Shown: in pieces, positions 16,559-29,074 of the stretch | Layout of the letters: every line of letters starts with the position of its first letter | Position numbering within the stretch: position 1 is the first letter of the stretch | Assembly (NCBI RefSeq): GCF_024707545.1 | Contig: NZ_CP062229.1 | Span: 5,995,501-6,059,500 of the forward strand | Direction: 5' to 3' | DNA: 64,000 nucleotides | Source of the DNA: Mesorhizobium onobrychidis | GTDB taxonomy: Bacteria > Pseudomonadota > Alphaproteobacteria > Rhizobiales > Rhizobiaceae | Made by a program: the position numbers and the translations under genes | The notes under the pieces: generated by a model | What the model was told of the DNA's origin: nothing | Databases searched by the model: none | The model's input: the letters and a program-made list of their open reading frames with translations, nothing else

Positions 16559-19500
16559 TCACTCTTCGGTGTCGTCTGCCTCGTCGTCGCCGCCGGCGAC
16601 ACGGCCGAGGTCAGCGCGCTTCTCGGCCAAATTGTCCATCTTGGTCATGATCGACGACATCGAGCGGTCGAACTCTCCCTGAGAGATCAGGTTGCGCTCG
16701 CGCTTGCGGCCGAGCGCCCGGGCCTGCGCCCGCAACTCCTGCTCGACCTTCTTCATGTCGTAGCCGTGCCAGAACAGCCCTTCCTGAACGTCCTGGCCCT
16801 TGACCTTGATGCCGACCGACGAGGCGAGTGCCGACGGCAGGTCGTAATCCCTGCCCTTCGCGTCGGTCGCACCCTTGAGCGAGTTTTCGATTTTGGTCCA
16901 ATACCAGGAGTTCGGCACCCACGCCGCCGACGGCATCCAGCTTTTCCAGGCATAGTCGCCGACCTTGCCGGCCTTGTCCCACCAGTCATCGGTCAGATCG
17001 TTGGTGATCGGGTCGCCGGTAAAGCCCTGCTTGTTGAGGGCGAGCTCGGCCGCCATCATCATCGGACCGCCCAACTGGATCGGTGCCGGAATGGGTAGCG
17101 CACCCGAACCCTGATTGGTGTCGAAGACGTCGCCGGCCGGGATCCAGCGGCGGATGTCGAGGAACATCGGCAGGCCATTGCCATCGCGGAACGGCAGGCG
17201 CAGCATGCGCGGCACGCCGATCCACGCATAGCCCTGCTCTTCGTCGCGCAGGCTGGCGCGCTCGCGTTCCTCTTCGTCGTCATCGTCCCAGCCATAGGCG
17301 AGCGCGTTGAGCGCGTAGGCGATCAGGAAGTACTTCGGCAGCTTCCATGGCCTCGTCGCCATTGCGCGGGCGATCAGCGGCACGGCGCGATAGGAATAGG
17401 CGATGAACGGCAGCACGGTGTTGCGGGCGGCATTCACCCACGGCGCCCGGATGTCATAGTCGAGGAATTGCTGGCGCGCGAAATCAGCCGCTACGGCCGG
17501 CTCGTCGCCAAGCTGCCGGCGGCGCATGTAGGTCGCCATGCGGAACAGTTCGTCCTCAATCCGGTAGGCGTCGAGCATCTTGCGGTCGACGAGCTTCGCC
17601 CAGGTCCACAGCCTGTCGGCGATCTTGCTCATCACCCTGGCCTTAGACGTGAACGTGCCGGCGCTGGCGTCCGCCTCGGCCTTGGCGATCTCATCGAGGA
17701 TTGGCTTCAGCACGTTATCGCGAAGGTCCGCCGATACCATGTCCGCGCCGAAAGCGCCGTTCTTCAACGCCTCCTGATAGTGCTCATCGCGCGAGACGAA
17801 GGACTGCACGCCGGCCTTCAGGTCCTGAAGCCGGATGTCGGCCATATCCATGAACATCAGGTTCGACATGACGTTGTTCATGTGGACGACTGGCGAGCGG
17901 GCGGTCTTGTTGAGCTTCCATTGCGTCAGCAGCTGGCGCCAGACCGTCGGCCGCGACATGATCTCGATCTCGTTGAGGTCGCGCCAGATTTCCGCGCGCA
18001 CCCACTTGCCGGCGAGCGCTCCCCAGCGCTTCTTGCCGCCCGACTGCGGAATGGCGCTGTCCGGAACCTTGATGTAGGCAATCTCCGAATCGGCCCAATA
18101 GCGGCCGGCGTCAGACGCATCCTTCCACTTTGCGGCAGGCTCCTTGCTGACGGTCCACTGCTCGTTTTCGGCGATGTCCTTGTAGAAGCGGCCGGTGGCG
18201 AGGTCGTGCGCCATCATCATGTAGGTCTTGCCGATGTTGTAGCGGGCGTCGAGGATTTCGCCCATATTGGCGCGCTCGGCCTTGGTGTAGTCGCGCCAGA
18301 GCACCAGCTTGTCGCCCTTCTCGCCCCTGATCTCCCACAGGCCATTGTCCTTGAAGCCGGCATATTTCAGCGGCACATCGCGGTCGGCAGGCCAGTAGAC
18401 GCGGCGGACTGTCCGCTCCTTGGGTCCGTCGGCGAGCGCATCTTCCTGCATCTCGACCTGGTCGAGCACGCGGAATTTCTCGCCTTTGACAGGGCGGCCG
18501 CGCTTGGCGAGGTTCCACTCGGGATCGTCCTTCACCAGGCGCGAGGCGTCGATGTCGAGGAAGATACCCCTGCCCTTGAACTGGTCGCCGATGATCTTCT
18601 TGCGGTTGCGGCCCATGATCCGGCCGACCATGCGCGAAAGGCCGGTCTGGTCGACCTCGTTTTTGGCATAGACGCGGTGGAGATAGGCGCCGCGGTTTCG
18701 CTCGAAACTCTCGGCCGACAACAGCCCCAGCGATACAGCCTCTTGGCCGAGCTCGTCGATTGCGTTGCGGATCGGCTCGGCGAGCTTGCCCATGTCGGCG
18801 TCGTCGACCTTCTCGCCGGTCAGGATCGCCTGCAAAACCTTCGCTTCGCTGACGCCGACGTTCTGGTCTTTCAGCGATTTGAGGACTTCGACGCCTTCCA
18901 TCATGATGCGGCGCTCGTCCAGGCTGCGCTTGCGCTCGCGACCGACATAGTCGGCATCAAGCCCGTAGCGGTCGATCAGACCGGCGCGCGCCGCTTCCAA
19001 CGTGCCGTTCATCCACGAAAACCGGCCTGCCGGGCTGAATTTCGCATCGGTGATGATTTTTGCTGCCTTGTCCGAGAGGTAGAGACCCGGCTTCCACTGG
19101 CCCTGCTTGTTGACGCCGCCGAAGAACTGGAACGGCACTCTCAAGGCGCGGTCGATCGGCTGGCCACGGGCGATGAGACCCTGAGCAACACGTTGGCCAT
19201 CGGCCGCGGTCTTCGGCTCGCGGCGCATCTTGAACAGGCTGGTCTGGTCCTTCTCGTCGCCGAACAGCGGCAGCCCGGAGGCGTCGCGCTGCGGCTTCGA
19301 CGATGCCTTGCGGCCCTGCATCAGGCGCTCGGCGCGTTCCTTGTCGCTGATCTTCTCGGCGCCTGGAATGACGAACTGCTCGCGCGGCCCGTCCATGGTC
19401 TCGACGACTTCCTTGGCGAACAGGTCATTGTCCATCGACGGGATCGCATAGGCGACATCGCCGCTGTCCGATGCGCGCGGCCGGTTGCCGATCTCGCCGG

Positions 19501-22500
19501 AGCCGATCTTGGCGAAAATGTCGTTCGACGTCTGGAAGCCAAGGCCATGGAGCGCGTTGCCGAGCGCTTCGATAAAATTCCTGATCTTGCGGAAGGCGCG
19601 AGCAATGAGCCCGCCAGCGTTGAATTTCTCCGTCGCCCAATCGGCATAGGCGTGGGCGATACCCTCTTCGATCTGCGCCCAATCGGGGAAGCCGGCATAC
19701 CGTGCAGCGATCTTGTAGCGCTCTGTCCACTCGCGCATGGATGTGTTCGAGAGTGCCTGCCATTCCTCTTCGGTGAAAAGACCGGCCCGGCGCATGGCGT
19801 GCAGCGCTTCGTGATGCAGCACGTTGGCCGGGTTTTTCGCATCAAGAGCGACGTCGATCAGGCCACGGAAATATCGACCGTCGGCGGGAAAGGCTTTGCC
19901 GTCGACAATGAAGCGGATCGACTGCGCCAGGCGCAGGCCGACATCGGTCAGCCCGAGCCGGTCCAATTCCTTGCGCAGTGCGCCCTCGATGCGATCTGTT
20001 TCGGCCGCGAAACTGTCGGCGAGCAGGATCTCCGAGCGCGACTCGCCGCCATCGGCCGCCTTGAACCGCTCGGTGATGACGCGCGGCTGCCCCTGGCGCA
20101 GCGCAAACATCTGCTTGCCGCCGGTGTCGCCGGTGATCTCGCGCGCCACATCGAGGTTTTCCTTCGTCTCGAACACGGCTCCGGCCTTGCGCATGGCGTC
20201 GAGCACGCGCAGCGCCGTCGTCGGCGGGATGTCGATACGCATCTCGCCACCGACCTTGACGAAGTCGCGGCCGGCGGCGTCGAGCACGCCGCGGTTGAGG
20301 TAGTATTGGCCGCCCTTGTTGCGCCCTCCGTCGGTGATGACGCGGATATCGCCATTGCCGAGCCGCTTCACGCCGGCCAGGCGATCGGTGGAATAGAGTG
20401 CCGCCGCCGGCACGCGGTCGAGGAACCGCAGGATGTGGTCGGCGATGTTGAAGCGGACCGGGCGCGTTCCAAGGAAAGTCTCGGGGTCGAAATCGCGGCG
20501 CATCATGATGCCGGAGCGCAGCCGGCCCTCGTCGTCGGTGAAATTGACGATCGAGCCGCGCGCGTTCACGACATCGTAGCCGGCAAGCAGATTGCCCGTC
20601 ACCACGATGCGCTCCTCGCGCCTGGACTGCTGCATGTCGTCGAACGCCTTGATGATCGGCATGGAGCCGATCGACCTGGCTTCCTCGACCTCGATCTGTG
20701 CCGGCGACGGCTCGGACGGCGCGGTCCTCGCGGTGTAGAGTTGCGAAAACGGGATAGTCATCTGCCGCGATGCGTCGGCGGTGGCGATCGTCACCTTCCA
20801 CGAACCCATCGCCAGCGGGTTCTTGGTCTTGCCTGTGCGCTTGATGGAAACAACGATGCCGTAGAGGTTTCCCATGCTCTCGGTCTTCAGCCGAACGCCG
20901 GTTGCGGGCGCAAACATGTTCATCAGCGCAGTGAAGCGCTTCTCGATATCGGCCAGCCTGGTCTCCATCGCCGCCCGCACGTCGGGCTTCTCAACATCGC
21001 CGACCATGAATTTTCGATAGGCGTCGAACTCGGCGTAAACGCTCTTCCACTGCTCGCGATATTTGGTCGTCGTCGACCGTTCCAGGCGCGTCAGCGCGGC
21101 CTGGGCCGTTTCCGGCGTCACGTTGCCAGCGTCCTCGCCCGCCGCCTCTGCGATGGCCTGCACGACCTGCACCGACGACATCGGCTTGCCGAGCTTCTTG
21201 ACGTCGACCTTCTCGAAGTAGACGCCGTCGGCGAACGGGCTGTCTGTGCCTGACGGCTCCTTGACCTGCCTGTGCTCGATGGTGCGGGCATCTAGGTCGA
21301 GCGTCTTGGCCTCGAGTGCGTTTTCGCCGGATGCCTCGACCTGCGCGATAAACGATGTGTATTCGCTTTCGAGCATTTCATAGACGAGCTCCTGCACGTC
21401 GAGCGGCAGGAGCGGAATGCGGCCGGTGACCTTGCGCATCGCCTCGGTGTGGTCGAAGCCGTCCTTGGCCTCGTTGAGCGGCTCGCCGAGCATTTCGTGA
21501 ATGTCGGGATTGTCGGACATCACGGCAGCCGCGACCCGGTCGCCATACTCATTCATGAAATCCGGCACGTCCTTGGCCGTCAGCGCGCTGTCGCGGCTGG
21601 CCGTGGTGTTGGCGTTCAGCGATGCCATCTTCTTGGCGAGCACCGAAGCCGGGCGCTTTTCGGCCGGCACGTTGGCGACCAGTTGCGAATAGCGCGGCGT
21701 CACCACCTGCCCGGTGCGGTGTACGCGGCCGAGCATCTGCATGTGGGTGTCGATGTTGCCTTCCGCCTGGGCGATGATCATGTGCCGCTTCCGGCGGTCC
21801 TTGACCTTCTCGGACGCATGCAGCGACAGGCCCGTCGAACCTGCCTGGTTGAGGATCATGGCGTCGAGAGCGCCGCCGTTGAAATCGGTGATCGCCTTGC
21901 GGCGGCCGGCGATCGACTTCGCGCTGCCGGCGCGCATCTGCAGGACCTGCGTGCCGTCGGCCCGATAGTCGATGACCATGGAACGGCCAGTGATCTCTCC
22001 GACCTTGTGCCCGGCTTGCGCGATGCGGCTCCTGATCCAGTCGATCGGCGACACCGGCAAGGAACCGAAATCGCCGTCCTGAATGAGCTTTTTAGCGGCC
22101 TTGAAGGCGGCAACGCCAGACGGCCCCAACTCGTCGTCGGTCAGATAGTGCCGCTCGCTCTCGCCCTTCTTGGCAAACGGCTTCCTGATGATCAGCACGC
22201 GGCTGCGCTCGAGGTAGCGGATAAGCAGGTCGGCAAAATTGATGCTGATGGCGTCGCCGGGCTTCAGGCCCTTTTCGCTGGCATACTCGTCGAGGAACGA
22301 TTCCAGCGTATTGGCCAGCGTGATCACAGGCTTTTCGCCCTTGGCGATGCTCTCGATGGCAGTATTGGCCGCCACATCGGCTTTCAGGGCCAGAAGGATC
22401 TGGTTGATGACGTTGTGCATGATCGACGTGAAGTTGGTCGACGTCGCGCCGGCGCCGCCGGTCGAGTTGTCGCTGCTGATCTGCTTTGCATCGGCCTTCA

Positions 22501-25500
22501 TCTCCTTGTCGATCGCCTTGCTGGCGCCTTTGACGTGGTCTTCAGAAAACGTCTGGATCGCCTTGATCGATGTCGAGAACCGCTCATAGGTCTTGCGGTC
22601 AACGGGCACGACCGGGCTGTCGTAGACGACGCCGTCAAACGAGCGCTCGCGCCTGACATACTGGCCGGCCTTGCTCAACATGGTGGCGACGATCTGCTGC
22701 ATCGGCACGCCGCCGCGCTGGATCAGTTCGCCCAGCTTGGTGATGTCGTCGACGGCAAGGCGCATATCGGTCTTGGCGTAGAGGTCCATGACGTCGGGGC
22801 GCTTGGCATAGGTGGCCGACGAATAGAGCACGGCGTCGGCGGTCTGGGCGATCTCGCGGGCGAACGTCGCCCGGTTCATCGCCTTGTCGTCGACCATGCC
22901 GGCTGCGTTGCCGCCAGCGTTGTGGCTCTCGTCGAACACGACGACGCCATTGGCGCCGACCATCGCGCGCAGGAAGGCCATGCGCTCGGTCTGCTCGCCC
23001 TTGACGGTCTGCATCTGCGAATAGGTCGTGAACACCAGGTCGAAGCCGTCGAGTTTGCCGGCGGTTGCCATGCGGCGCATAAGCTGGCTGTGCGGTCCGG
23101 GTCCTTGCGACTTGATGAACTTGGTGCCTTCCTCGTCGAGCGGCACGCTTTCGCCTGAGTTGGTCATCAGGATTTTCGGCTCGCGGCCGAGCATCTCGAC
23201 AATGCCGATGTCGACCAGATCGCGATACATGTCCGCGTAGAGGTTCGGCTTTTCGGTGACGAAGATCGGTGTCTTCTTGTTGCGCATGGCCCAGCGCAGC
23301 ACCGCCGCCACCTGCCTGCCCTTGCCGATGCCGGTCTGATCGCCGACGATGAAGCCGGCGTTCTTCCGGAAATTCTCGATCGCCAGGGCGACGCCGTCGA
23401 CCTGCTCGGCCGCGAAATAGTCGCCGAGCTTGTCCTTGGGATAGCCGAGTTCCTTGGCGACGAACGTATCGAGGTCGCCGACCTTCTTGGAAAGAGCGGC
23501 CAGCGATTCCGAAACCGTCGTCTGCATGTTGACGGGGACCAGCGTCCCCATGCCCGACTGCGCAGATTTCGGCTTGTAGGCCACCTGCCTGTCGGCGGTG
23601 TCGATCTTGGGAGCACGCTTGGTCTTGGCCTGCTCGCCATCGGAACCGATCGCCGCGGCGGTTTCGGCCGCCGCCTCGGTCGGCTGGATCGCTTCGCGGT
23701 TGCCCTGGCGGACCTCTTGGGGTGCAGGGGCGGCGCCGAACAGATCGCCGGTTACGTCAGGGCGTCGGCCATCTGCTGCGGGCTGCTCGCCGCCATCGCT
23801 CGCTTGAACGCCTGCATCCGATTGAGGCTGAGGCGCTGGTACAGGCTCTCGTTGCTGCCGATCAGGTCCAGGCTGAACGCTTGCGGGCTGTCCGTCCGCA
23901 GCCTCGGCGACTGGTCCGGCGCCAGAAGGTTCGACGCCACGAACTGCGACGTTATCAGGCGCATTGCCTCGATGCGCTGGCTCTGCGGCAGCTTCGACAA
24001 CAGGTCGGACATCTTGTCCACCAGTTGGTCGCGTTGCTCGATCGTATCGTGCATCGAGAAGGCCCTTTACTTCGTTCCACGAGTTGAGGACGCGCGGAAC
24101 ATCTGCGGCCGGCAGCCGGAGGGCGGACTTGCCCTTGCCCCGGATCACGATCACGTCGACCGGCCAGCCTGCACCCTGCTTTTCGTAGAGCTCACCGGCC
24201 ACGGTGAAATGATCGACCACATTGTACCGCGAATAGAGCGTCAGGTAAAATTCCCGCTTCGCCTTGCCATTGTAGGCGTTCGATCGGGCTTCCTCGGTCT
24301 TGGCGAGCTTGTTGACACCGCCGAGTATCAGCACCGCCGAACCGTCGTCCTTCATGCGATCGAGCGCGCTCAGGCTGATGGCATGGTCGATCTCGCCGGT
24401 CGTGTAGCGCTCGTCGATCTTGAACTGCCTCGTCTTGCCGCCTTCCTCGTGCACGGCGCCGAATGGCGGGTTGGCAATGACTGCATCGACGCCGCCGGAC
24501 GGCAGGTTCGCGCCGGCCTTGTCGCCGGCAGCATCTTCGCTGGTCGTATCGAACCTCAGTTCGCGCAGCATGGCGGCGCGCTCGGGATCCAGTTCGTTGG
24601 CAAACACCTGGTCGGGTGTCGCCTCGATCAGCAACGCGCCGTTGCCGGCGGTTGGCTCATAGACGGAACCGGCCTCGCTGACCTCGGCCAGCCGCGACGC
24701 CACATAGGCAAGCGGCACCGGCGTCGAATAGGCTTGGTTCTGGATGCTGGTCGATGTCCTGACCGACAGGTTCGGCTGCCGGCGATAGAGGCTGACCAGA
24801 CGGTCGAACGTGATCTTGTCGCCACTGCCCTTCGACGCCTTGACGATCTCACGGCCGGCGAGCACCGCGCCGACCTCGATGGCCTCGTCGACGGCCTTTG
24901 CCGCCTCGGTGCCTGGCTTGATGGCGCCGCCGACGCGCTCGGCCGCGAACTGGCGCGCCTGCGCGATCGACGGGAAGCCATTGTCTGGCGACGAGAAGTA
25001 TTCAGCGAAGGCGATGCCGAGATTTAGAACGTCCGGTTTCTCGGGCGTTCCAAAGCCGGTGTCGGCCTGTGTCGGTGGTTCTGGTGCGGCCGGCGGCGCC
25101 GGTTCCGGCGCTTTCGGTGCGGACGGCGCTTGCTCGACGGGCTCATACGCGGCCGAGCGCCCGCGGACGGAAATGCCACCGTCCGGCTTGAGCGTGACCG
25201 GCTCGGTGATCCTGATGCCGCCATCTGTGGTGAAAGAGCGGACGCCGCGCTGATCTTCGAAGAGCGGCCGATCGTCCTGGTTTACGCCGATCTGCCGCCA
25301 TTGCGACTTGGCTGCGACTTCATCCGCTCCTCGAGCCGGTTCGCCGCTTCCAGATTCGTCGCCGCCCTGCGGAGTTCCTTCCGGTCCTCTACGCTCAGGT
25401 TCGGCTGGTTGAGCGACCGCTGGCGCAATTGCTTCGCCTTGTCGGTCCTCTGCTGCGGGGTCAAACGGGATGACATTGTCGATGTCCTCTGTTTGTTCAC

Positions 25501-28500
25501 TCTGCTCCGTTTCCGCGTCGATCGCAAGAGCATGGCGTTCCATGACCTCGACGGCGGCCTCTTCCGGCCACCAGCCATCGGCGATCAGCGCCTCGATTTC
25601 TGCCATTTCCGCTGGCCGAAGATTGGCGCCGAGGGCCTGAAGCGTCTGTTTCAGGTCGTCGAGAATGGCTTCGGTGCGGGATTCGCCGGGATCGCCTGGC
25701 ACCTTGATGCCGGCGCCCTTGGCCTGGTCGGCGCGCGAAAACACGCGCTGGCCGCGCCGCGTGGCGTCGATCGCGTTGAGCAGATCGGGGATGGTGCTGA
25801 CCTGATACTGGCCCGACTGCCCGAGATATCCAGCCTCTTCGGCGAGTTCTCGGGCTCGATCGAGCGTCAGGCCGCCGGAACGGACCAGACGGCCGGCACC
25901 AGGCACGAACAGATTGCGCAGGTCGAGCGAGCGCAGTTCGCCCTGATAGTCCTGAAGTCCGCCGGCTTGCGCCAGAAACTGGACGATGTCGGGCGTTCCG
26001 GCCGTGCCGCCGCCGCTGCGCTTCTGCTCCGGCTTGGTGTAGGCGACGGGCTTCTTCGGGTTGCCGTTCTTCAGCCATTGCCGGAATTGCGCCACGGTCA
26101 TGCCCGAGACGGCACCGGCGCGCGTTGGGCCGCTGCCGTCCGAGAACGCCGCTTCGTAGGTGTCCATCGCCGACTGAAGGTCGTTGTAGCCGAGCATCAC
26201 CTTATGCTCGTCGAACTTGCCGGTGCGCGGGTCGATCTGGTCGACGACGAAGACGCTGCCGGTGTTCTCCTGGCCGAGATAGATGTCGACCGCATCGCCG
26301 TCGGCGCCGTTGGTGCGCTTGAGATAGCCGTATGGCGCCGGCATCCGCACCGACCACGGCTTGCCGCTGGGATCGATGCCGGTACGCTCCTGCCCTGCCT
26401 CTGTCTCGATGGCGATGGGCATGCCCTGCCATTCGACGTGACGCTTGCGGTAGTTGCCGGCCTCGGCCTGTGCAGGCGTCGGCTCGACGGTCTGCTCGGC
26501 ATTGATGTGGATGTCGGAGGGGCGCTCGATCACCACCGGCGCTTCGCGCGTGCCCGGCGCCGGCTGCAGCCGCGCCATGGTCGCGCCGTTCTCGGTCTTT
26601 GTCTCGAGCCCTTCGACGTTGGCGCCGGTCGGCACGGTCCGCCACGTCGCCGTCGGCGTGAACTCTTCGGCGGCTTTGCGCTCGGCGACGATGTCAGACA
26701 GTTTGCGCTTGTCGGAAAGCAGGGTGTCGAGATTGGGCCGGCTGTCGTTCGCGCCGGGGATCATTTCAGCGGTCGGGATGCTGCCTGGGCGCCGCGGCGC
26801 CTGCTCGATCTGGCCGCCCATGTGGCGGTTGACGACATCAGCCGCCCAAGTCGGCAGGGTTTCGGCGTGATAGTTCGGCCCCCAATAGCGGCGCGCGCCA
26901 AGATCGACGTGGATGGCGTTGTTGTAGACGCCGATGCCGGTGAAGCCCATGGCTGACGCGGCCTCGATCAGGCGCACGCGCTCTGAGATCGGCATGCCGC
27001 GCACGTCGATGTCGAGCGCATTCCCGTCCATGTGCTGGGATTGCTTCGCGCCGCCGGCCTTGGCGTTGCGCTCTGGATCGCGAAAACCGGATTTGATCGG
27101 CAGCTGCGCGCCGAACGCGTCCTGCAACTGCTGGAAGCGGTCGAGGACTTCCGGGCGGACGTTCTTCACGTCGGCGGACCCGGATTCTATCGTGAAGCTC
27201 TCGGGCTCTGGCACAATCGCGGCCATACCCCTCGGCTGGTCTTCGACCGGGATCAGGCTCGGATCGGCGACAGGCGGGGCCGCCGGCACAGCCTGACGAT
27301 CGATCTGCTGTAGCCGGCTCGCCTCTTCTGGCGTCGTCTCGAAATTGAAGGTGAAGCCCTGCTTGACGCCCTGCTCTGGAATATCCGCGTTATTGACGCG
27401 CGGATCGTTCGCAGGGACATCGATATAATGCAGCGGCAGGTCGGACCGGTAGTCTGATGCATATCGGCGGTTCGTGCTGACCCAGCGCCCCGACTCGCCA
27501 TCTGCAACGGGTTGCCCGCTGTGATATAGGCGCACCATGCCGGGAGGAACCGGAGGTTCACCGTTTGTTTCACGGGAGACGGGAGCAACCGGCGTCAGCC
27601 CGCCAGCGTCAAGCGGTGCCGGCGTGACCGGCATGCCGACTGCCGGCGGCTGCGGCTCGAACGCCTGCTCGACACGGGCGGTCGGATCAAACCCGGCCAT
27701 CTCCTGACCGAAGGCTTCGTCGATCCTGCCGTTGACGGCTTCTTCGGACTCGGGATCAAGACCGATGATCTGGTCGGCCGGCAATGCGCCATCCGGAACG
27801 GCTTCGACCGACCGAAGGCGCGAGCCCTTCCCCTGGCGCGCCATGCCGATGCCGATTTCAGGCACGCCGGTGACGACCTCGGCCATGCCCTCCATGAGCA
27901 CGTCGGCGGGCTTGCTGACCTCGCCCTCGTCGACATACTGCGCCGACGCCTCGCCGGCTGCACCGGTGCCGGCCTGCACGGCGAGTTCGGCGACCGGCTT
28001 GCCTATCCTGCCGGCAACACCGAAGGAAAGCGCGTCGAACGCAGCAATCGGAATGCCGCGCTTGATGGCGTGCTCGCGAGCCTCTGCCATCAGGACCGGG
28101 TTCTGGAACGCGGCAACGACTTTTGCATCGTCGTTGAAATCGACGCCGTGCTTGCGCATCGTGTCGATGATGGTGGCGGAATACTCGCCGGCGAAGGAAC
28201 CGATGAACGTGCCGCCGACAAGGCCGGCTGTGGCGCCAGCGGCGGTACCGGCGACAGGAACGACAGAACCGGCCGCACCACCGGCAGCGCCGCCCGCTAT
28301 ACCACCTGCCAGCGGCGCGATCGACTGCGGCACGCTCTCGCCGATGGTCGACAGGACCGCCGACGGGTTCGAAATGATGGCATAGGCACCGCCGCCCCAG
28401 CCTTTCGATTCCGCAATCTCCTTCATGCCCTGCTCGACGGCAGGCGATGGCGGATAGTTGGCGATGTCCAGTTCGTCGCGGACCAGGTCCTTAGCGGCCT

Positions 28501-29074
28501 CTTCGTCGGTGATGAAGCCGGTTTCCCGCTTGATCATGGTTCCGGCCTGCTGCAGGCGGTTGAAGCCGCGCGCGACAGAGCCGAACGGGACGGAGCGGTC
28601 TTCCGACATGGGATCGGCGCGGCCGATCGCCGGCATCGCGGTGAGGCCGCTCGTGTCGAGCTTTTTCAGCCCATCGACATTGAGCCCGCTCGTCTGAGGC
28701 GCAGGACTATAGAATTTCTCCTGCTGGCTGTGCAGCGCCTCGGCATATCCGGTGGCGTGCTCTGGCGTGTCGAACTTGCCGAGATATTGCCCCGTCCTGC
28801 CATATTGCTCTTTCGCCTCTTGATCAGAGAGGATGCGCGAACCATCGTCCGCGACGGTCGGGATGAGGACTTCCTCACCTTTGTTGTTCTGAAAAGACAT
28901 CGAACGCACGGTGCTGATTGAACCGTCGGCATTCTTGACGCTTGGCCGCTTGGCAAGATCGATGTTGCCTTGCTCAATCAGGCCGGGAAACGGCCCGACC
29001 GGCGACGCACTGCCCCCAGCCGGGCGCAAGCCCGTGGTGTCGAGTTTCTTCAGTCCGAGCGTGTTGAGGGTCAT
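16559..29074 (-). CDS. Giant polyvalent virion protein (M15-like peptidase, pyrophosphatase-like, adenine methyltransferase, DarB-like helicase, zincin)
   Basis: 4171 residues. Rough order: a short module [16 protein letters not shown]...[10 protein letters not shown] (36-110); a Gly/Ala-rich hydrophobic stretch (248-292); an ADP-ribosyltransferase-like patch (512-550, tentative); a peptidase M15/VanY-like domain ([24 protein letters not shown]; 660-725); an inorganic-pyrophosphatase-like domain of polyvalent proteins (873-985); an N6-adenine methyltransferase ([11 protein letters not shown] ~1472, NPPF ~1535); an SF2 helicase ([10 protein letters not shown] ~1913, DESH ~2046, [15 protein letters not shown] ~2447) of DarB/strawberry-notch type; an HExxH metallopeptidase motif (HHEALH ~3086); and a long C-terminal polyvalent-associated domain. 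Such proteins are thought to be ejected with the DNA and protect it from host defence. It starts by ATGA overlap with the upstream virion gene. Confidence 0.9.
23752..24054 (-). CDS. Nested gene A, overprinted in the polyvalent gene between methyltransferase and helicase
   Basis: 100 residues from the ATG at 24054 to a TAA, in the +1 frame of the giant gene. Upstream is AAAGGG at 8 nt spacing. Its codons end in G/C in 91 of 100 cases by my count, against about 41% for the giant frame over the same bases. The product looks like a normal helical protein ([40 protein letters not shown]), while the giant frame here is a Pro/Gly/Ala/Gln-rich linker. I do not recognise the family. It is probably a separate small protein translated from within the giant mRNA. 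Confidence 0.7.
25282..25476 (-). CDS. Nested gene B, overprinted in the polyvalent gene before the methyltransferase
   Basis: 64 residues from the ATG at 25476 to a TAA, again in the +1 frame of the giant gene. AGAGG lies 9 nt upstream. 53 of 64 codons end in G/C by my count, against about half in the giant frame. The protein is basic and helical ([40 protein letters not shown]). The giant frame here is a low-complexity acidic linker. No family recognised; a small nucleic-acid-binding or inhibitor protein would fit the charge. The longer upstream frame is not coding in character. Confidence 0.65.

Follow-up and report, generated by a model that had tools for sequence, protein, structure and literature searches.

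A probable small gene overprinted in the linker of giant methyltransferase-helicase proteins of phages and plasmids

Can the low-complexity linker of a giant protein be, at the same time, the coding sequence of a second, smaller one? This question is raised by a polyvalent protein encoded in a 64,000-nucleotide stretch of the Mesorhizobium onobrychidis genome, hereafter the window (Table 1). Some of the ten neighboring open reading frames (ORFs) searched match portal, major head, terminase, tail and endolysin families, and the locus is therefore part of a prophage. Polyvalent proteins with a DNA methylase-helicase dyad have been described previously (Iyer et al. 2017, PMC5512222), and the giant of the window resembles the dyads of that account in being a giant multidomain phage or plasmid protein in which an adenine methyltransferase is followed by an SF2 helicase. 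An NPPF methyltransferase motif stands upstream of the helicase in one and the same polypeptide. Above the curated Pfam cut-offs, the giant ORF matches an inorganic pyrophosphatase domain, M15 peptidases and the two halves of the Strawberry-notch-type SF2 helicase; its N6_Mtase match (E 0.0015) falls below the cut-off of that family, and LPD36 was not among the matches in this general Pfam search. Region 1391-2140 of the giant has 1271 homologues, 120 of them listed, among 1688 scored candidates.

Between the methyltransferase and the helicase, the preliminary description had noted an ORF in the +1 frame of the giant that opens with an ATG, runs for 100 codons and ends in TAA. It had also noted AAAGGG 8 nt before the ATG, and a giant frame that reads over the same bases as an Ala/Pro/Gly/Gln-rich linker joining the two enzymes. 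All of these features are present. The start falls at offset 5020 of the giant ORF, which places it in the +1 frame, from giant codon 1674. Over the same bases, the GC content by codon position is 0.604/0.406/0.901 in the nested frame versus 0.911/0.604/0.406 in the giant frame, in agreement with the original hand count of 91 versus 41 codons ending in G or C.

Table 1. Coordinates of the nested gene, the surrounding giant ORF and related features in the window.
Feature	Coordinates	Strand	Remarks
Predicted nested gene (P0002)	23752..24054	-	+1 frame; ATG, 100 codons, TAA
Giant polyvalent protein ORF	16559..29074	-	4171 codons; contains the nested gene
Partial Shine-Dalgarno sequence AAAGGG	24063..24068	-	8 nt before the nested ATG, within the codons of the giant's methyltransferase end
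Adenine methyltransferase, C-terminal part	24077..24475	-	NPPF motif; lies just upstream of the nested ATG; served to fetch relatives
Ala/Pro/Gly/Gln-rich linker of the giant protein	23752..24057	-	Same DNA as the nested gene
SF2 helicase, first half	22586..23365	-	PF13872 AAA_34
SF2 helicase, second half	21326..22009	-	PF13871, Strawberry-notch C-terminal
Second candidate nested +1 gene	25282..25476	-	64 codons from an internal ATG; ORF open from 25578; upstream linker

The length of the open frame was rejected as proof of a gene, as the amino acids of the giant alone give about the same length. When the synonymous codons of the giant were resampled, most trials gave a +1 frame no shorter than that of the window, both by gene-wide codon usage (p 0.97) and by permutation (p 0.82). 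Over the 78 sequences compared below, the median p was 0.46 by usage and 0.26 by permutation, and p was 0.05 or lower in 8 and 20 of the 78, respectively. These lengths are what would be seen if the nested frame were a by-product of a GC-rich, low-complexity linker that lacks the codons making +1 stops, in which case both the open frame and its apparent conservation would come for free. Linkers rich in Gly, Ala, Arg, Pro, Asp and Glu in 110 homologous proteins fit this explanation, as does a Paracoccus plasmid dyad (L101) whose linker has such a composition and an open +1 frame, and no match to the nested family.

The composition of the giant frame itself speaks against a by-product. A GC3 shift taken without a synonymous control was rejected as proof because linker composition raises GC1, which is the third position of the +1 frame, and disfavors the +2 frame; a test with such a control was then run. 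Given the amino acids of the giant, synonymous GC3 in the window is depleted in two consecutive 40-codon blocks (z -7.8 and -6.0). Across homologues, for which the preliminary description had proposed a check of this kind, the giant-frame synonymous GC3 has a mean z of -5.4 in the 91 blocks over the nested gene versus +0.14 in the other 3836, as counted in GC-rich giants only (41 by the same filter). Codon usage points the same way in the window, where the nested codons fit the gene's own usage (+0.40 per codon) and the giant frame does not (-0.42), although the nested frame has the better usage in only 55 of 83 sequences.

The decisive evidence for the predicted gene is comparative, not its open length. 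Relatives were fetched with the methyltransferase segment, which gave the best 80 of 94 viral-contig loci and 11 genome-contig loci. Together with the window these 91 loci make 92 sequences, reduced to 79 by removal of near-identical ones; one locus (L016), whose contig ends inside the region, was left out of most counts, leaving 78 usable sequences (77 loci and the window). In all 78, even at a GC content of 36%, the methyltransferase domain is immediately followed by an open stretch in the +1 frame, and the nested gene measures 90 to 154 codons from start to stop. In an all-against-all blastp comparison of the 79 sequences, the pairs matching at E 1e-20 or below numbered 213 for the nested, 39 for the giant and 17 for the +2 frame. 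The nested frame also gave more bits than the giant frame in 813 of the 942 pairs with a match in either, and 72 of the 79 sequences form one linked group at E 1e-3 or below in the nested frame. Substitutions are likewise redistributed: in 11 close pairs that align without gaps, giant codon positions 1, 2 and 3 carry 223, 135 and 102 substitutions in the nested region versus 113, 71 and 327 in the methyltransferase flank. The starts used for pairwise conservation and substitution counts, as for the analyses of long and short forms and of spacing and charge described below, were chosen with a bonus for a good Shine-Dalgarno sequence. The better conservation of the nested frame and the shift of substitutions to giant position 1 uphold the earlier claim that this frame is selected as protein-coding, and they indicate purifying selection on the +1 protein beyond that on the long frame.

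This pattern is confined to one place and one frame. When five alternative frames were scanned along the giant ORFs of 85 sequences, with pairs of more than 85% identity dropped, there were 234 pairs in which the +1 frame outscored the giant frame, and 233 of these lie at the nested-gene linker; for the +2, m1 and m2 frames there were none. The antisense frame m0 beat the giant frame in 40 pairs, all at the nested-gene linker, a signal that we read as a probable shadow of the same conserved DNA.

A second collection of relatives was anchored on the helicase and comprised the best 80 of 233 loci, 54 of which were already in the first set and 26 of which were new, as judged by an exact 150-base check. 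Models built beforehand found the nested gene in the +1 frame in all 25 new loci with a methyltransferase (E 3e-9 to 7e-43), some of these loci being near-duplicates of each other or close to training sequences; the 26th (L180) has no methyltransferase on its sequence piece. In a profile search of 102 sequences, with models built from many of them, exactly one nested-model match was found in each of 98, and none in L016, L098, L099 and L101. A linker retained while its nested frame is broken by stops, the observation named at the outset as fatal to the proposal, was thus seen in none of the 78 sequences, and the 25 further loci all match. The alternative-frame ORF is kept across these relatives and is absent in three outgroup dyads. 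Nearest to a broken case is the Paracoccus plasmid dyad, with a Pro/Ala-rich linker (L101:3001-4818) in which the +1 frame is open for 134 codons and has no match to the nested profile; it is either a linker without the gene or one whose gene is too different to see. The pattern also holds in AT-rich loci (L022 at 36% GC, L013 at 42% GC), which speaks against a by-product. The by-product explanation is already contradicted by conservation, by the substitution pattern and by the position control, as far as sequences can tell, and we regard it as exceedingly improbable.

The giant frame is under selection as well. It is open over the nested gene in 78 of 78 sequences, when 3.7 would be expected if only the nested frame mattered, and therefore both frames are selected; for the window alone, this openness has a p of 0.07. 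The locus is thus best described as a putative dual-coding gene, to which we assign a probability of about 0.95. Sequence comparison establishes that both frames are selected, that the predicted small protein is the more conserved, and that its start signal is enriched beyond what the amino acids of the giant need. That the small protein is actually made is something that we infer. One mRNA with two starts would yield the giant protein and a separate small protein, with ribosomes starting anew at an internal Shine-Dalgarno sequence and ATG in the last codons of the methyltransferase domain. The small product would have about 90 to 170 residues (100 in the window) and be mostly helical, judging by predicted structures, while the giant frame over the same bases would be kept free of stops and read as a hydrophilic linker. 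In sequences having the small gene, the linker of the giant is best read as its stop-free shadow.

An own internal start for the nested gene is very probable, based on the signals that precede it. The AAAGGG of the window matches AAGGAG at only 4 of 6 bases, so its own Shine-Dalgarno sequence is weaker than in many relatives. Across the family, under an unbiased start rule (the first ATG at or after codon 125 of the open run), AAGGAG is found at 5 or more of 6 bases before the start in 47 of 78 sequences (32 exact), the remaining 31 having 4 of 6 or less. The same level of match occurs at 33 of 670 control ATGs, and synonymous codons would give 27.5 +/- 2.7 of 78. In 30 of 36 cases the exact AAGGAG motif lies 7 nt before the start, a spacing measured on starts chosen partly by their Shine-Dalgarno sequence.

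The nested frame could instead be reached by programmed +1 frameshifting out of the methyltransferase, which would produce a truncated methyltransferase with a new tail and no free small protein. Indeed, +1 is the frame in every case, and it opens close to the end of the methyltransferase domain. However, with starts chosen partly by their Shine-Dalgarno sequence, the codon just before the nested start is a +1 stop in 29 of 78 sequences, and 57 of 78 have such a stop within the 5 codons before it, which leaves little or no room for shifting upstream and argues against this route; more room exists in 21 of 78. In most sequences the alternative frame thus lacks the stretch open upstream of its own start that a frameshift product would need, and the enrichment of a start codon with a Shine-Dalgarno sequence is also at odds with frameshifting, which we consider very improbable.

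The predicted nested product folds confidently in modeling, without a recognized family or fold. The AlphaFold model of the window's protein is all-helical (pLDDT 92.1, pTM 0.84); that of the long form, which exceeds 118 codons, adds short strands (pLDDT 94.6, pTM 0.87). As the sole query, the window's protein found no relative, and among 199 genomes it matched only itself. A long-form profile had no match in 385 genomes, and since it missed the source genome as well, which was among them, that search was not sensitive. Among about 5.8 billion predicted proteins, the long-form profile had 15 matches, in a search that reaches only relatives sharing short exact words and in which the short form was queried by the window's protein only. 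Fourteen of these 15 lie on contigs of 0.5 to 4.1 kb and one on a contig of 19 kb. We take the short contigs to be places where the giant is cut off and the nested frame is called instead, and the standalone homologue for which the preliminary description had suggested a search was not found among the matches. Gene prediction seems to have mostly missed the nested gene in related giants, and gene callers seem to lose it because the longer frame is kept.

Relatives of the nested gene extend to cyanobacterial plasmids. From a listing of 557 plasmid records and three phage records with a match, nine outgroups were picked by hand. Strong profile matches in the +1 frame of the giant were found on plasmids of Chroococcidiopsis (L093, E 1.5e-12) and Leptolyngbya (L094, E 5e-9) and on plasmid pAQ6 of Picosynechococcus sp. 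PCC 7002 (L097, E 5e-7; predicted protein P0139 at L097:3401-3907), and weak ones on plasmids of NIES-970 (L096, E 0.0025) and Thalassospira (L095, E 0.0097). Bacteroides phage BS-TP4 (L100) is a positional case only: its +1 frame is open and protein-like at the expected site, but it does not match a profile built without it and matches a later model that includes it. Dyads on Cupriavidus and Vogesella plasmids (L098 and L099) have short linkers and no nested-profile match. The archetype of the dyad is DarB of phage P1, a virion protein that protects DNA in cis, according to the main text of PMC5512222. P1 darB has no nested-family match in any frame (best E 0.61), and DarB differs from the giants considered here in that the NPP and helicase motif patterns used for them both fail to match.

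What the small protein might do is suggested by its fixed place at the methyltransferase-helicase junction, which points to a partner of this enzyme pair, for instance a chaperone, a packaging aid or a regulator. Such a partner would be translated from the giant's own mRNA, next to the growing giant chain. We hold this role tentatively, at a little short of even odds. The main rival is an anti-defence protein, such as an inhibitor of restriction or of another host system, encoded beside an antirestriction-type enzyme. One antirestriction protein, P1 DarB, belongs to the polyvalent methyltransferase-helicase dyads (PMC5512222). The product is small and diverges fast, with 36% identity between the window and L003 versus 69% for the methyltransferase segment, and it is usually acidic (median net charge -7, negative in 71 of 78, family range -14 to +2). 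The window's protein, however, has a net charge of 0, no PADLOC, Pfam or PHROG family match was obtained, and no second copy was found outside the linker in 102 sequences, whereas anti-defence genes usually move as separate genes. We consider an anti-defence role unlikely. Strong net negative charge is the mark of DNA-mimic antirestriction proteins of the Ocr/ArdA type, and the neutral product of the window lacks it.

The preliminary description had held the nested frame to be selected and also older: the first part stands on conservation, while for the second the codon composition points that way and the tree does not settle it. Its further proposal was that two genes flanking a once separate small gene became joined into the giant by read-through fusion, which would make the linker a shadow of that gene; we give this history slightly less than an even chance. 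In the window, the nested frame is ordinary in composition and codon usage and the giant linker is not, as expected from such a fusion. L098 and L099, which lack the small gene, have short linkers, and in one locus (L088) a methyltransferase ORF of 348 aa stops shortly after the small gene. Fused dyads without the gene exist, however (L098, L099 and L101), so fusion does not need the small gene, and in L101 the linker is long and of low complexity even so. In L088 the giant frame runs through the nested gene and stops soon after, and the sequence downstream looks like host DNA, presumably a host type I restriction gene, so that a break and an ancestral state are equally likely. Moreover, the root of the tree is a midpoint. 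The L088 segment itself (L088:7746-9665), a short methyltransferase ORF with the small gene at its end, may be a broken prophage or a separate-gene state. On the midpoint-rooted tree of 90 sequences (3 of 93, without a segment, were left out), long and short nested forms do not separate, and those of cyanobacteria are long. The N-terminal AWxP part may therefore have been lost more than once.

Other linkers may bear comparable marks. Outside the nested gene, z falls below -3 in a single 40-codon block of the window, which begins near 25492 (z -5.3); there, a +1 ORF at 25282-25578(-), with a likely start at 25476, reads as a basic peptide. The similar footprint makes this upstream linker a lead toward a putative second nested gene. 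This ORF also weakly matches a comparable position in L084 (E 0.006). Among the 41 GC-rich giants there are 43 further GC3-shifted +1 ORFs, 5 of which are the main gene with an earlier start; none was seen in the +2 frame, which composition disfavors in that test. Of the other blocks with z below -3, 57 of 143 have an open +1 frame versus a 35% baseline, and therefore much of the signal in these blocks may have another cause.

Several further observations concern these linkers. Giants with GC3-shifted further +1 ORFs include those of L069, L070, L078, L043, L082, L086, L012 and L014. In L072, a +1 ORF from about codon -1427 encodes a peptide that contains MPFKSKAQMRAAF, has no PHROG or Pfam match and presumably resembles a common small phage protein. 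No PHROG match was found for ten peptides (from those eight giants, L072 and the window), and no Pfam match for five of the other-linker peptides searched. The sole site outside the nested-gene linker at which the +1 frame is better conserved lies about codon -933/-1077 from the methyltransferase segment in L060/L068 (E 7e-6). A second overprinted family upstream of the methyltransferase was rejected: over four rounds in which only +1 matches were admitted to the next model, its profile recovered only its own six seeds.

That giant polyvalent genes carry a second coding layer, in which several disordered linkers are shadows of +1-frame small genes, is possible but rather doubtful. If it were so, one message would make the giant protein together with a set of small partners, the nested-gene linker being the conserved case and 25282-25476 and other GC3-depleted linkers the faster-changing ones.

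Overprinted genes are known as a kind; what sets this one apart is that its predicted protein is conserved and has a confidently modeled fold. Classical examples in phages are gene E within gene D of phiX174 and the lysis gene of MS2. As in these, a small protein would be read from an internal start in another frame of a longer gene. Unlike them, the outer frame is here a hydrophilic linker, the inner frame is the better conserved and has a confident predicted fold, and the same pairing is seen again in phage contigs, in genomes of Pseudomonadota and on plasmids of cyanobacteria. The nested gene was not reported in the literature searched, which did not cover preprints. In contrast to the present findings, neither "overlap" nor "linker" occurs in the main text of PMC5512222, and no second gene inside the linker is named in the passages compared.

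If the dual-coding reading is right, a large methyltransferase-helicase family has an accessory protein that went unnoticed, and low-complexity linkers in giant proteins of phages and plasmids should be considered as potential genes. The production of two proteins from one mRNA would be directly testable in the relative on pAQ6 of PCC 7002 and, for the positional case, in an isolated Bacteroides phage.
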